Source of the DNA: an uncultured Roseiflexus sp.
Lineage (GTDB): Bacteria > Chloroflexota > Chloroflexia > Chloroflexales > Roseiflexaceae
Reading direction: 5' to 3'
NCBI GenBank assembly: GCA_937935075.1
Contig: CALGYB010000150.1
Span: 1-36,193, forward strand
DNA length: 36,193 nucleotides
The notes under the pieces were generated by a model that saw nothing but the letters and a program-made list of their open reading frames with translations, was not told the DNA's origin and made no database searches. Made by a program: the position numbers and the translations under genes. This document shows, in pieces, positions 23,907-31,963 of this stretch; positions within the stretch are counted from its first letter, which is position 1; each line of letters starts with the position of its first letter.

Positions 23907-25025
23907 TTAGATCGACCGATCGGCAAGCCAGGCATCGATCTGCGGCCACAGACCACGACGCGCCCCGCTGCCAGCCATAATGCCAATATGACCGCCAGGC
24001 ATAATAATCTGGTGTTTATCGGTGCTGCTCACCCGATCCAGAATGGTTTCCGACTGACACGGCGGCACGATGTGATCCTGCCGGGCGATGATGTTGAGCA
24101 GCGACGCTTTGATGTCTCCCAGATTGACCGGGCGACCGCGCATGATCCACGTACCCTTCATCAACCGGTTTTCGCGGTAGAGATCGACGACCAGTTGACG
24201 GTACGCAGCGCCGGCAAACGGCACGCCATCGCTCACCCAGGTATTCATCGCCTGCCACGACTCGACGATCTTCGGATCATCGAGGTTATCGAGCAACCGC
24301 AGGTAATTGCCGACCAGATTTTCGACCGGCTTGAGCAGCTTGCTGCCGGCATCGATCATCTCGCCAGGGTAGTTGCCAGTTTGCTCGAGAATAGCGTCGA
24401 GGTTGAAATATTCCTCTTTCAGCCATTTGGGGAAGGGACCGATGGCCCCCTTGTTGGAGAAATCGATCGGCGCGGTCAGCAGGATCAGATTGCGCAGCCC
24501 GTCGTTCGGGCGCATTGCCGCATAGATCGCCGAGAGCGTCGCGCCAATGCACCAGCCGAGCATACTGAAATCATGCTGCCCGCTGTGCATCTGCATGCGA
24601 CGAACAGCGCGCGGCAGATATTCGAGCGCATAATCGTCGAAGGTCAGATGCGCATCTTCCGGACCTGGAGCGCCCCAGTCGACCAGGTAGACGCTGTACC
24701 CCTGCTGGACCATGTACTCGACGAAGCTATTCCCCGGGCGCAAATCGAAGATGTAGGGCTTATTGATCAACGCAAAGACGAGCAGCAACGGCACACGTTT
24801 GCGTTTCTCCGCCGGCGCCTGCGGGTAGTAGTGATACAGCGTCGTCTTATTCAGCGTCCAGATTGCTTCTTTGGGCGTCTGCGCCACTTTCGCTTTCTGC
24901 TTGCCCGTGGCGACCTTGACGCCCATCTCATAGGCTTTCCCCAAACGCTCAACTTCGGCGTACAGATTCTTCGCTACTGTCGCCGGATCTACGGGAAAGA
25001 GCGTCGTTTCAGGCGACGTCGTCAT
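23907..25025 (-). CDS. phaC: Class III poly(R)-hydroxyalkanoate synthase, PhaC subunit
   Basis: This 372-residue enzyme polymerises (R)-3-hydroxyacyl-CoA at the granule surface. The lipase-like box is GWCIGA with catalytic Cys159. Asp317 (ARQDHIVPP) and His346 (GGHIGIMAG) complete the triad. The short length (class I and II synthases are about 560-590 residues) and the VYLVDWGAP region mark class III, which needs PhaE. The phaE-like gene lies 47 bp upstream and phaB 30 bp downstream. AAGGAG lies just before the ATG on the minus strand. Confidence 0.96.
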   Translation of the reverse strand: MTTSPETTLFPVDPATVAKNLYAEVERLGKAYEMGVKVATGKQKAKVAQTPKEAIWTLNKTTLYHYYPQAPAEKRKRVPLLLVFALINKPYIFDLRPGNSFVEYMVQQGYSVYLVDWGAPGPEDAHLTFDDYALEYLPRAVRRMQMHSGQHDFSMLGWCIGATLSAIYAAMRPNDGLRNLILLTAPIDFSNKGAIGPFPKWLKEEYFNLDAILEQTGNYPGEMIDAGSKLLKPVENLVGNYLRLLDNLDDPKIVESWQAMNTWVSDGVPFAGAAYRQLVVDLYRENRLMKGTWIMRGRPVNLGDIKASLLNIIARQDHIVPPCQSETILDRVSSTDKHQIIMPGGHIGIMAGSGARRGLWPQIDAWLADRSI

Positions 25026-25072
25026 CGACCTACTCCTTACTGCTTACAGGCGGCACATGCCGCATTCTGAGG

Positions 25073-25672
25073 CTAGAATCCTTCGATAGCGTGATCTTCC
25101 TTCACCTCTTCGGGTGTCGCCGGATCGGGTGGCGGAACCTGGCGCGGCGCTTTGCGGCGCTTCTGGGACGCATCCACCGGCTCGAGCGCTGCCTGCTGCA
25201 GTCGTTCGATCAATTGCAGCATCTGATCGGCTTTGTGATCGAGCGCTGCCAGGCGCTGCTCCATGCCGTTGAGTTCTGTGCCTTCCTGCTTGTTCTGTTC
25301 GAGTTGTTCGGTGAGCATCTCGACGATCACCGGCGTCTGGGTGCGCAGCGCGTGCGCCAGTTGATCCAGTTTGATCTCGATGTCGTCCAGGCGCATTTCG
25401 ATGTTTGTCACCCGGCGCGCCAGGGTGGTCAGTTCCTCGCGCGACGGAAGGTTCAGGCGCGCCAGCGATGTCTTCATCGAGGTGTTGATCAACTGCTGTA
25501 ACGGCGCCGACGCGATCAGGTACGAGTCAAGCGTCGCTCCGACCCAGCGTGCAAACGTCTCGGTGTTGACCAGGTCGATCATCGCCTTGGCCCATGCGTC
25601 GAGCGTTGCATCGCGAGCCTTGCGCAGATTGCCAATTGGATCGTTCGGATCGAAGCCGTCTTTCTGGCCCAT
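25073..25672 (-). CDS. phaE: PHA synthase subunit PhaE / phasin-like protein
   Basis: This 199-residue protein is mostly helical and amphipathic. After the N-terminal helices, residues about 75-110 hold LNLPSREELTTLARRVTNIEMRLDDIE, the element found at the C-terminus of PhaE subunits, then a coiled-coil region and a Lys/Pro-rich tail ending HAIEGF. It should activate PhaC or coat granules. The ATG at 25672 is chosen because AAGGAG lies six bases upstream; the ATG at 25690 has no such site and a start at 25795 is less likely still. It is the first gene of the pha run. Phasin is the alternative name for the same features. Confidence 0.82.
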   Translation of the reverse strand: MGQKDGFDPNDPIGNLRKARDATLDAWAKAMIDLVNTETFARWVGATLDSYLIASAPLQQLINTSMKTSLARLNLPSREELTTLARRVTNIEMRLDDIEIKLDQLAHALRTQTPVIVEMLTEQLEQNKQEGTELNGMEQRLAALDHKADQMLQLIERLQQAALEPVDASQKRRKAPRQVPPPDPATPEEVKEDHAIEGF

Positions 25673-26042
25673 GAGCGTCTCCTTCGACATGTACGCCCGG
25701 CAAGGGCGGGTTGGGTTCTGGGGGTCTGTGCTGTGCAACACGGCGCTTTCGGGCGCGCGTTCACATAGGGGATAAAAAAGACGCGCCCTGCGCAACCGGT
25801 TCTGTCATGAGAGTAGTCGGAACAGTTACAGAGAGGATACAGCTTTCTGACACGTATGCGCTGCGGCAATAAACAATACATTGTGGCAATATGGTCATCA
25901 CAGGCGGCGGCGCTGCGCCGCAACAACATTCCCGGACGCATCTCCTCTCGCCAGTGTCGCGTAGCGTTGTCTGCGCTGCCTCTGTGACACCCTGACGAGA
26001 AGGCGCGCCAGGGTTGTTTGTTGAGTGCACACTTGATGTGCC
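25673..26042. other. Upstream region of the pha operon
   Basis: About 370 bp without a supported gene, between the divergent phaE and the small + strand gene. The part around 25860-25900 is AT-rich and contains the palindrome ACAATACATTGT. The pha promoter is probably in this stretch, but I could not find a convincing -35/-10 pair. Confidence 0.4.
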
Positions 26043-27546: not shown

Positions 27547-28074
27547 TGTTGTTTCTCACAAGGGCGTCATCAACCGAACTTTTCCTTGTAGTATTGTAGA
27601 ACGATGGAAAAGCCATCGCAAGCGGGATGAGCGGCGCGAGGATATGAGGCGCGGATCCAAAGGGAGAGTGTTCCGCATGTGAGGGATGCTGGGGCAAGGT
27701 GAGCGACAAGCGGAGCCAGGGACAGAGGTCTTTCAGGGGGAGGCTTTTGTGACAGGCGTGGGGGCTTTGCGCATCACAACGCCATTGATTCCCTCATCAC
27801 CCCACCCCCGTCGCCTACAAGCAGTGCGCCGAGTCTGCCGAAGCGCGAAGAGGGGGCGTAGGGGCGAGGCGTTTTGATACTCGCAACAGGCGATAGAACT
27901 CAGGAACACGCCGAAAAACGTGATACCTGAAAGCGTAAGGAAGCAGAGGCGGGGAGCCGGGTTCCGAGTTCCTGGTTCCTGGAACTCCTCCTGAAGCCGT
28001 GCGGTTGAGAAGGAAAAAGCGCACCGTGGGGGGGAACCAGGCGCTGAGTTCCTGGTTCCCGGAACCCCGAACCC
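27547..28074. other. 528-bp gap with direct repeats
   Basis: No gene is supported. A 20-bp direct repeat GAGTTCCTGGTTCCTGGAAC (27966-27985) recurs with one change at 28046-28065 next to the ugpB-like stop. A degenerate GAGCCTGTCGAAG-family unit sits at 27826-27846. TACAAT on the minus strand near 27590 might serve the SpoIIE-type gene. Confidence 0.5.
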
Positions 28075-29487
28075 CTACCCCTCAACCGTCTTCAACAGCT
28101 CGACCGTCGGCTTGGCCGTCTCTTCGAGTTCCGCCTTGACGTCCATCCAGACCTTCGCCGGGTCTTCGCCGGCGATCGTAATGCGCTCCAGCCCTTTGCC
28201 GATAATCTGGTCGCCGCCACGCACATAGACGCGCGCCGAGTCCTGCGGGCGGGTCTTCGGCAGTTGCTCGACAGCCGTGCGGAAGTTTGGTCGTTCGGTA
28301 AAGTATTTCTGCATCGACTCCGACTCGACTGCCGCTTTGCGCACTGGCATATACCCTGTGCGCTGCGCCCATTGAATTGTCCACTCTTCGCCAGTAGCGA
28401 ACGCGATCCACTTCATCGCCGCCTGCTGTTTCTCGGCAGGCAGACCAGCTAAGATAGCCATGCCCGAACCACCGGTGCAACACCCAAAGCCCGCCGGACC
28501 CTCTGGCAAGAAGCCGGTGCCAACCGGGAACTGCGCATTCTTCTCGACGCCTGCCAGCGCAGCGGTGCTCAACATCGCACTGGCCGACAGACCCGTGACG
28601 AAGTCCTGGGTCACGTCCTTCGGCGTGGTCGCCCATTTGTAGGTTTGGGTCGTGTCGCGGTAGAAGTTGCCCGCCTTGATGCCGCCATCCTCGTGGATGC
28701 GGATGGTGAAGTCGGGGTCGCTGTAGCGACCGCCGAACTGCCAGATCACACCCTGGAACAGCCAGGCGATGTAGCTGGCGGCGCCAGGATGGGCGAACGC
28801 CGAACGTCCATCTTTGTTGAGTTTCGGCGCCCACTCCATGAACTCGTCCCACGTCTTCGGCGCACGATCTTCGAGACCGGCTTCCGCCCAGGCGTCTTTG
28901 TTGTAGTAGAACAGCGGGGTCGAGCGCGCAAATGGAACCCAGTACACCGTGTTCTTGCGAACACCCTCGTTGAGCAGCACATCAACGTATGCCTCACGCT
29001 TGACGCCTTCGGCTGCCATCAGATCATCGAGCGGCTGCAACTGGCCGTTGATGTAGAACGAGAACCACCACACATCCGAGAGCAGGCTGACGTCAGGGGT
29101 CTGCCGCGCCTGCACGGCGGCGGTCAGTTTCTGCGCTGTTTCTTCGTAATTGCCCTGAAACTGATAGTTGACCTTGACATCCTTCTGCGCGTTGTTGAAC
29201 GCATCGACGGTCGCCTTTTCGGCTTCGCCCAGAACGCCGCTGAACGACCCCCAGTAAGTGATCTCCACTGTCGAACCCATTGACCCCGAAGGCATGGTGG
29301 CTGGCGGCGCAGCAGTCGCCTGTTCAACGGTCGGCGCAGCGGTCGGCGGCACGGCAGTCGCCTGCCCAGCGGTTGGCGGCACGGCAGTCGGTGATGTCGT
29401 GGCTTCGCCGCCGCAGGCTGCCAGCGTCAGTGCACCGGCGCCCGCCGCAACGCCACGCAGGAATTGTCGTCGGTTAACCTTCGCCAT
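28075..29487 (-). CDS. ABC transporter substrate-binding lipoprotein, UgpB-like
   Basis: This 470-residue extracellular solute-binding protein of family 1 has a twin-arginine style start (NRRQFLRG, residues 5-12) and lipobox LAAC with Cys25. A Pro/Thr/Ala-rich spacer to about residue 75 precedes the binding domain. The middle PLFYYNKDAWAEAGLE...PKTWDEF and the late GFGCCTGGSGMAIL, WIAFATGEEW and GYMPVRKAAVES segments resemble UgpB, the glycerol-3-phosphate binder, more than maltose binders; a glycerophosphodiester or sugar ligand is possible. The ATG at 29487 follows GAGAGGAGAG. It is the last gene of the permease-permease-binding protein run. Confidence 0.9.
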   Translation of the reverse strand: MAKVNRRQFLRGVAAGAGALTLAACGGEATTSPTAVPPTAGQATAVPPTAAPTVEQATAAPPATMPSGSMGSTVEITYWGSFSGVLGEAEKATVDAFNNAQKDVKVNYQFQGNYEETAQKLTAAVQARQTPDVSLLSDVWWFSFYINGQLQPLDDLMAAEGVKREAYVDVLLNEGVRKNTVYWVPFARSTPLFYYNKDAWAEAGLEDRAPKTWDEFMEWAPKLNKDGRSAFAHPGAASYIAWLFQGVIWQFGGRYSDPDFTIRIHEDGGIKAGNFYRDTTQTYKWATTPKDVTQDFVTGLSASAMLSTAALAGVEKNAQFPVGTGFLPEGPAGFGCCTGGSGMAILAGLPAEKQQAAMKWIAFATGEEWTIQWAQRTGYMPVRKAAVESESMQKYFTERPNFRTAVEQLPKTRPQDSARVYVRGGDQIIGKGLERITIAGEDPAKVWMDVKAELEETAKPTVELLKTVEG

Positions 29488-29657
29488 GATTTTCTCTCTC
29501 CTCTCGTTAGCATCTGTCCCTGAGGTTGACGCCTGATACGACCGGTGCAATCGCATGTGACAGCACCGGTCATCTCAACCCTCAACCCTTTGTCAAGACC
29601 CTTGTAATCTACAACTTTCCCACCTTCCACTCCGCTTGCCGCTTATCCAATTTTCTG

Positions 29658-29763: not shown

Positions 29764-30663
29764 CTACCCCTTCACCGCCCCGGCTGCAATACCTTCGACG
29801 ATGTAGCGCTGCGCCCAGACGAAGAGGACAACCACGGGCAGCACAACGAACATAGTTCCTGCCATCACCACGCCCCAGCGCGCCAGTCCCTCCTGGTCGA
29901 GCAGGCGCGCCACGCCAATCGGCAGGGTGCGCATGTTTTCCGTGCTGGTGATGATCAGGGGCCAGAGAAACTCATTCCACTCGTTGACAACTGCGAAGAG
30001 GCCGGTCGTCGCCAGCGCAGGCATCGCCAGCGGCACAGCAATTTCCCACAGGCGCCGCATATGACCGGCGCCGTCGATCTCGGCGGCTTCAAACACTTCA
30101 CGCGGCAATGTCATAAAGTACTGGCGCATGAGAAAGGTGCCAAATGCCGTCGCTGCGCCGGGCAGGATCAATCCCCAGTATGTGTTGACCAGCCCAAGAT
30201 CGGCCATCGTCAGAAAGTTCGGCACAATCGTGATCTGCGCCGGCACCATGAGCGCTGCCAGCACAATCAGGAAGACGATGTTCTTTCCAGGAAAGCGCAG
30301 AAACACCAGTGCATACGCCGTCAGCACCGCCAGGGTCATCTTCGAAAGCGTCGTCGCCAGGGTCACGATGATGCTGTTGAGGTAGTAGCGGGCGAAGGGC
30401 GCCGCTCTCCAGGCGGCAGGATAGTTGTCCAGCGTGGGATTGAGCGGGATCCACGTCGGCGGTACGGTGTAGATTTCACGACTGGTTTTGAGTGATGCGA
30501 TCAGCATCCAGTAGATCGGCAGCCCGATTACCACCATCGAGACGATGATCGCCGTATACCCCGCGATGCGCCAGAGCCAGCGCCGCCGCAAGGCGAGCGC
30601 GCGACGGCGCCGCCGTCGGCGCTTTATTACGGTGCTTTTTTGGAGACCTGCGTGCTGTTCCAT
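29764..30663 (-). CDS. ABC transporter permease, UgpE-like (second permease)
   Basis: This 299-residue inner-membrane permease of the MalG/UgpE type has a run of seven or more Arg at residues 15-21 on the cytoplasmic side, then six transmembrane helices. The EAA loop is EVFEAAEIDGAGHMRRLWEIAVP, and FGTFLMRQYFMTLPREV matches the UgpE signature. The start has no clear ribosome site; the next stretch upstream holds heptad repeats. It forms the pore with the permease encoded upstream. Confidence 0.92.
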   Translation of the reverse strand: MEQHAGLQKSTVIKRRRRRRRALALRRRWLWRIAGYTAIIVSMVVIGLPIYWMLIASLKTSREIYTVPPTWIPLNPTLDNYPAAWRAAPFARYYLNSIIVTLATTLSKMTLAVLTAYALVFLRFPGKNIVFLIVLAALMVPAQITIVPNFLTMADLGLVNTYWGLILPGAATAFGTFLMRQYFMTLPREVFEAAEIDGAGHMRRLWEIAVPLAMPALATTGLFAVVNEWNEFLWPLIITSTENMRTLPIGVARLLDQEGLARWGVVMAGTMFVVLPVVVLFVWAQRYIVEGIAAGAVKG

Positions 30664-30847: not shown

Positions 30848-31759
30848 TCAACTGTAATGCACCCGTCGCTCCAGAAATCGCAACTGCAAAAGGGTCAGGA
30901 TCAGCATCAGCACGAACATCACCATCGCCACAACGCCAGCCGGACCGGCTTGCGATTGGATGAAGCCGCGCTCGTACAGGTGGTACACCAGCATATTGGT
31001 GGCGTTCACCGGTCCGCCGTCGGTCATTACCCGGATGATGTCGAACGCCTGGAAACAAGCCAGAACGCTCGTCACCAGCAGGAAAAAGATGATCGGCGAC
31101 AGCCCGGGAAGCGTCACGTGCCAGAATTGCCCCCACGGACCGGCGCCGTCGATCCGGGCCGCCTCGTAGAGCGTCCGGTCGATCGTCTGCAATCCTGCCA
31201 GATAGATAACAACGGCGTAGCCAGTATTCTTCCAGATATAGACGATCAGCAGCGCCGTCATTGCCCAGTTCGGGTCTGCCAGCCAGTTGGGCGAAAGGAT
31301 GCCGAACCATCCCAGGATCTGCGCCAGCAGCCCAAAACGCGGGTCGAAGATATAGATCCAGACAATCGCAATTGCTGCGCCCGAAAGGACGGTTGGCGTG
31401 AAGAGCACGGCTCGCGCGCCGTCGCGCCAGCGCAGCGGCTGGTTCAACAACAATGCCAGCCCCAGCCCCAGGATCATCGTTGCAGCGACCGATACGACGG
31501 TGAAGACTGCGGTGTTGATCAAAACGATGCGAAAAATCTCGCTGCTCAGGACGGTCTCGTAGTTGCGCAGACCGACGAAACGCCGGATCGGGCTGAGAAA
31601 GTTCCAACTGATCGTACTCAGGTAGGCGTTGTAGATCATGGGCCAGAACGTAAATGCCGCCAGGAGCAGTACGTTCGGGCCTATTAACAGAAGAAATAAC
31701 AGTCTCTCGCGCCACTCGCGCGCACTGGCGCGGGGACGCGACACAGAGAATGCACTCAT
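30848..31759 (-). CDS. ABC transporter permease, UgpA-like (first permease)
   Basis: This 303-residue inner-membrane permease of the MalF/UgpA type has about six transmembrane helices, including LLFLLLIGPNVLLLAAFTFWP and the IIFFLLVTSVLACF region. The EAA loop is TLYEAARIDGAGPWGQFWHVTLP, followed by TDGGPVNATNMLVYHLYERGF, like UgpA. It is first in the run ugpA-ugpE-ugpB. No UgpC/MalK ATPase is encoded here, so a shared ATPase elsewhere is presumed. The upstream gap carries an 11-bp-phased TTAA array. Confidence 0.93.
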   Translation of the reverse strand: MSAFSVSRPRASAREWRERLLFLLLIGPNVLLLAAFTFWPMIYNAYLSTISWNFLSPIRRFVGLRNYETVLSSEIFRIVLINTAVFTVVSVAATMILGLGLALLLNQPLRWRDGARAVLFTPTVLSGAAIAIVWIYIFDPRFGLLAQILGWFGILSPNWLADPNWAMTALLIVYIWKNTGYAVVIYLAGLQTIDRTLYEAARIDGAGPWGQFWHVTLPGLSPIIFFLLVTSVLACFQAFDIIRVMTDGGPVNATNMLVYHLYERGFIQSQAGPAGVVAMVMFVLMLILTLLQLRFLERRVHYS

Positions 31760-31908
31760 AGCATCGGCGTATCAACTGCCATGGCAGCGCAACTTAACAT
31801 AACATCAGTGCAGCGCCGCTCCTGATCGCCATTGGGAGAACGTGTAGATGCAACACCAGGTGCATGTATGATGATTTCAACACAGCATTTCTATTAGTAC
31901 TGCATTGG

Positions 31909-31963
31909 CGTTAAGTGATCACGAATATTGCATTAAGTCAACCTTAATTTCCCATTAACCCCC
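31909..31963. promoter_or_regulatory. Pho-box-like array: TTAA at 11-bp phase
   Basis: Five consecutive 11-bp units read CGTTAAGTGAT, CACGAATATTG, CATTAAGTCAA, CCTTAATTTCC, CATTAACCCCC. Four have TTAA at positions 3-6 (31911, 31933, 31944, 31955). Direct repeats of 11-bp period are the form of PhoB/PhoP boxes; cyanobacterial boxes use CTTAACC-type units. It lies 150-200 bp upstream of the UgpA-like gene. On the minus strand TACTAA (31899-31894) follows the array by about 9 bp, roughly where a Pho-dependent -10 would sit. Confidence 0.5.

Follow-up and report, generated by a model that had tools for sequence, protein, structure and literature searches.

An array of 11-bp TTAA repeats upstream of a Ugp-like transporter operon in an uncultured Roseiflexus sp. 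is very probably a genuine Pho box, at which an activator of the phosphate-starvation response would dock, since the same kind of array, set equally far from the promoter, precedes phosphate-transporter genes of this bacterium as well as the corresponding uptake operon of relatives. On the strength of these sequence comparisons, the array is highly likely to be the operator, or activator site, of a promoter that drives ugpA-ugpE-ugpB under phosphate starvation. The array lies in a stretch of 36,193 nucleotides (contig CALGYB010000150.1), here called the window, and the features discussed below are collected in Table 1.

Table 1. Array, promoter element and genes in the window (array units are read toward ugpA).
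Feature	Coordinates	Strand	Remarks
Putative Pho-box array, five 11-bp units	31900..31958	-	16/16 TTAA bases invariant in five Roseiflexus species; architecture shared with pstS
Array unit 1	31958-31948	-	TTAATGGGAAA
Array unit 2	31947-31937	-	TTAAGGTTGAC
Array unit 3	31936-31926	-	TTAATGCAATA
Array unit 4	31925-31915	-	TTCGTGATCAC, degenerate
Array unit 5	31914-31904	-	TTAACGCCAAT, followed by GCAG and then TACTAAT
-10 element TACTAAT	31899-31893	-	11 bp past the last TTAA, 9 bp beyond 31909; 6/7 columns invariant in five species
ugpA-like permease, first in the operon	30848..31759	-	UgpA model E 1.3e-47, below equivalog cut-off
ugpE-like permease	29764..30663	-	UgpE model E 2.8e-57, below equivalog cut-off
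ugpB-like solute-binding protein	28075..29556	-	6r1b/4mfi E 5e-95; E. coli UgpB 4.2e-29
Small divergent gene, 69 aa	32085..32294	+	far side of array

Four TTAA cores, at 31911, 31933, 31944 and 31955, are spaced by 22, 11 and 11 bp, just as the initial annotation had stated. This spacing is correct and can be refined, in that the 22-bp gap hides one degenerate 11-bp unit in register (TTAA is thus present in four of the five units), and the array reads toward ugpA on the minus strand as TTAA-11-TTAA-11-TTAA-22-TTAA-N11-TACTAAT. Two further early claims, of an AT-rich stretch upstream of ugpA and of a possible -10 about 9 bp beyond the array, also held: the array region is a local minimum of GC content (0.37 at 31850-31949 vs ∼0.6 around it), and TACTAAT is found at the proposed distance. 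No -35-like hexamer lies at the usual distance from TACTAAT and a sigma-70 scan detected no complete promoter at the window array, as expected for an activator-dependent promoter. The site thereby combines the traits by which a Pho box is recognized, namely tandem direct repeats with an 11-bp period and a proximal unit 11 bp above a -10 that lacks a good -35. Further downstream, the ugpA leader (31840-31880) contains TGCACCTGGTGTTGCA, which is kept in three Roseiflexus species and is possibly a further regulatory site; an Rfam scan of the leader gave nothing of note and no match for this stretch.

A chance cluster of TTAA might be suspected in an intergenic stretch that is AT-rich, but this explanation is hardly credible. 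Dinucleotide shuffles of the window give an expectation of 0.01 triple TTAA arrays at up to one mismatch, vs one exact match observed, and the window site is the sole exact instance of TTAA-N7-TTAA-N7-TTAA in the genome (4.85 Mb). Recurrence of the array before pst genes also speaks against chance. The chance reading is already refuted by conservation, which was assessed by comparing the ugpA upstream regions of five Roseiflexus genomes (our own and G001-G004; among the named relatives of the species collection are Roseiflexus SKYG45, SKYB12 and 629F.7). All 16 core bases and six of the seven -10 bases are invariant, while invariance in the same five genomes amounts to 30% at the other array positions, 12% in the upstream flank and 29% in the downstream flank. 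Every one of the five Roseiflexus genomes with the operon keeps the array spacing upstream of ugpA; in G005 the ugp ortholog is missing and so is the ugpA-type site. The more distant G009 retains three of the four cores together with the -10 spacing. Outside the family, ugpA upstream regions from Anaerolineae, Thermoflexales and Candidatus Roseilinea contain same-frame arrays that beat nearly all shuffles (several with p at the floor of 0.005). Profile scores for ugpA upstream regions of L168, L166, L161 and L172 are weak, and among the Chloroflexota relatives compared with shuffles, L155, L157, L167 and L169 show no clear array before ugpA.

The TTAA cores alone give no direction, because TTAA is its own reverse complement, and the array, being intergenic and 126 bp from the start of the small plus-strand gene, could in principle serve that divergent gene. 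This is very improbable: the plus strand has no correctly spaced -10, the minus-strand -10 facing ugpA is conserved, and the polarity of the array (gap unit, then N11 to the -10) matches that before pstS, which lies downstream in the same sense. The array therefore points to ugpA, by virtue of its -10 and of the relatives, and the divergent gene is probably not its target. The 69-aa product has no family match, and its gene stays beside the ugpA promoter in Roseiflexus.

The initial annotation had read the array as Pho-box-like, in which case similar arrays should precede other phosphate genes and the spacing should be conserved in relatives. Both are found, and the comparative evidence from the pst promoters and the relatives' ugpA supports that reading. 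Arrays of this type occur before pstS1, pstS2 and pst3 of the same genome. The pstS1 promoter reads TAAACTATTTC TTAATACCAGC AATACAGGGTA TTAATATTGATCTGA TACACT, the pstS2 promoter of G003 reads TTAACCTAAAC TTAACACAACG ACCCTTTGCCC TTAACTTTGTGCAGG TATACT, and the match at the pst3 operon (on C45) has TATTAT as its -10. The N11 spacing to the -10 is common to the ugpA, pstS and candidate regulator promoters.

Six genus genomes were scanned for the pattern TTAA-11-TTAA-22-TTAA-N11-TA, allowing one mismatch. The pattern, which had been composed after the ugpA and pstS promoter types were both known, gave 11 exact matches, of which six precede pstS2 (6/6 genomes) and the other five precede ugpA. Matches with one mismatch lie before pstS1 (five, the G001 assignment resting on gene order at a contig end), before pst3 (one) and inside an unrelated coding frame (one, G002:C515, rejected as chance on account of that position). 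The reversed-pattern control gave a single match over all six genomes. A further triple array at C41:28878 was likewise attributed to chance, as neither strand has an N11-spaced -10 and the genes are unsuitably arranged.

Profile R1, built from 14 Roseiflexus-clade sites, matches only pstS1, ugpA and pstS2 in our own genome, pstS2 being outside the training set. Carried to other genomes and families, it recovers untrained pstS promoters (L238, L240, L233 and L237, the first two from other families) and the ugpA promoter of G026; for weak matches in relatives (L239, L241 and L244) no tie to phosphate genes was found. Profile R2, built from pst sites only, recovers both pst sites of our own genome but fails to recover the window site even when run unfiltered, so the likeness between the ugpA and pst promoters lies in the cores, spacing and -10 rather than in the spacer letters.

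In G003, PstS2 (L098:12062-14062) is a single 666-aa protein with two tandem PstS domains; its gene precedes pstA, pstB and phoU, beyond which lies a second pst operon. The pstS1 operon behind its Pho box (L097:1940-5311 in G000:C168; L099:3859-7161 in G003) is unusual in encoding a PstS-like binding protein, a HAMP histidine kinase plus a single-domain response regulator, which together may form a phosphate sensor fed by a binding protein.

PhoB dimers occupy 11-bp direct repeats in head-to-tail order, with the proximal unit replacing the -35, and OmpR-family regulators generally bind direct repeats with a period of ∼11 bp. The Bacillus subtilis PhoP box, which consists of TTAACA-like repeats, shares the TTAAC core and the ∼11-bp period with the Roseiflexus element. 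In E. coli, where the 11-nt Pho-box unit has been defined and ugp is under Pho control (PMC4415409), the -10 lies 10 bp downstream of the boxes (PMC1906773). The E. coli and Roseiflexus promoters share 11-bp direct repeats, several tandem boxes, a box 10-11 bp upstream of the -10 and the ugp operon as target. They differ in the core, CTGTCAT in E. coli and TTAA(C) in Roseiflexus, and in gene content, since no ugpC and no ugpQ or glycerophosphodiesterase gene was noted adjoining ugpA-ugpE-ugpB. Boxes of the cyanobacterial PhoB-type regulator SphR consist of CTTAACCT units with 3-bp linkers, repeated every 11 bp (PMC1906773), and have in common with the Roseiflexus element the TTAAC core, the 11-bp period, at least three units and a position before pst genes. 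In contrast to SphR boxes, the penultimate Roseiflexus unit is degenerate before ugpA and pstS2, the base after TTAA before ugpA is often T or G, and the spacer letters differ; the full 8-bp CTTAACCT consensus is not found in three or more units of the window array, which shares only the TTAA(C) core. Because this core is cyanobacterial, we regard the Roseiflexus site as a lineage form of a known element type. No described Pho regulon for Chloroflexota, nor a Pho study in Roseiflexus, was found in the literature searched.

The genome encodes ∼15 full-length PhoB-like response regulators, among which an orphan OmpR/PhoB-family regulator (C81:28024-28764, or 28021-28764 as L128:10022-10765) is favored, with some reservation, as the likeliest Pho activator and as self-regulated. 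Directly before its start codon stands TTAACTGTGGC ATAACAGAGCG TTAATGCTTATTTGT TAGAGT, an array of the form TTAA/ATAA/TTAA that is conserved across genus and family (6/6 genus genomes plus G006, G008 and G009, with G007 uncertain). These sites score weakly in profile R1. The closest paralog (C141 and its orthologs) has no such array. The -10 of the C81 regulator sits about ten bases before the start codon, and the layout suggests self-regulation and an mRNA whose leader is very short or absent. No kinase gene directly adjoins it among the neighbors examined.

The NCBIfam scores of this regulator, all below cut-off, are 230.8 bits for RpaB, 218.0 for YycF, 215.6 for MtrA and 214.7 for PhoB, so it fits the RpaB and WalR models slightly better than PhoB. 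Together with the number of PhoB-like regulators and the generality of direct-repeat binding at this period in the family, the RpaB score leaves some room for another OmpR-family regulator, of the RpaB or WalR type and responsive to stress or envelope state, for which phosphate genes would be only part of the targets. We consider this unlikely, given that the strong matches all lie before pst or ugp genes and that stress or wall genes are absent among them.

The initial annotation had described the transporter as Ugp-like and as importing glycerol phosphate, and both parts need qualification. For all three proteins, Ugp models are the best among specific transporter models, but the NCBIfam scores miss the equivalog cut-offs (UgpA 163 of 335 bits, UgpE 195 of 297 and UgpB 117 of 411). 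A Ugp-type importer is retained, while the likelier substrates are predicted to be glycerophosphodiesters rather than glycerol-3-phosphate, because the nearest solved relative of the binding protein is M. tuberculosis UgpB (PDB 4mfi, 6r1b), with E. coli UgpB a much more distant match. The M. tuberculosis protein binds glycerophosphocholine but does not bind glycerol-3-phosphate (PMC7034087). Its glycerol-binding residues are Asp102, Gly306 and Arg385 (PMC12718374), and the aligned Tyr78, Ser153, Ser272 and Tyr345 are presumed to be the phosphate ligands described there; counted along the 4mfi alignment, all seven are identical in the Roseiflexus protein. The Roseiflexus protein thus shares with the M. 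tuberculosis UgpAEBC glycerophosphocholine importer (PMC7034087, PMC12718374) the glycerol ligands and the presumed phosphate ligands of UgpB-type glycerophosphodiester binding. The specificity residue differs: Leu205, decisive for glycerophosphocholine in M. tuberculosis UgpB, is replaced by Tyr in Roseiflexus, and E. coli has Trp169. The best guess for the ligand is a phosphate-bearing glycerol compound. A few kb below the ugp operon, the window also contains class III polyhydroxyalkanoate synthase genes (phaC, phaR-like; 23907-25795).

In the mechanism that we propose, phosphate scarcity would lead to phosphorylation of an OmpR/PhoB-family response regulator, which would bind the 11-bp TTAA(C) units head to tail along a single face of the DNA. 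The promoter-proximal unit would occupy the -35 position, 11 bp from TACTAAT, so that the regulator would replace the -35 contact and recruit the housekeeping sigma factor, acting by activation rather than repression. Phosphate is the presumed signal because the array keeps company with pst genes, and the orphan C81 regulator, with a similar array before its own start codon, would be the likely activator. The promoter type of ugpA would also drive pstS1, pstS2 and pst3, and uptake of phosphate and of glycerophosphodiesters would thus be co-regulated.

A broader and more tentative possibility is a Pho-box code extending across Chloroflexota (TTAAC units at a fixed 11 bp from the -10), whose reader would be a self-regulated orphan regulator of the PhoB type without an adjoining kinase gene; in Roseiflexus, the same promoter type might also drive the PstS-like/histidine kinase/stand-alone receiver operon as a separate phosphate sensor fed by a binding protein. 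The element would give a concrete Pho-box definition to a phylum for which the literature searched yielded no described Pho regulon, would tie a glycerophosphodiester importer to phosphate control and would single out one candidate master regulator among ∼15. With such a definition, the phosphate response of hot-spring Roseiflexus mats would become readable from sequence.
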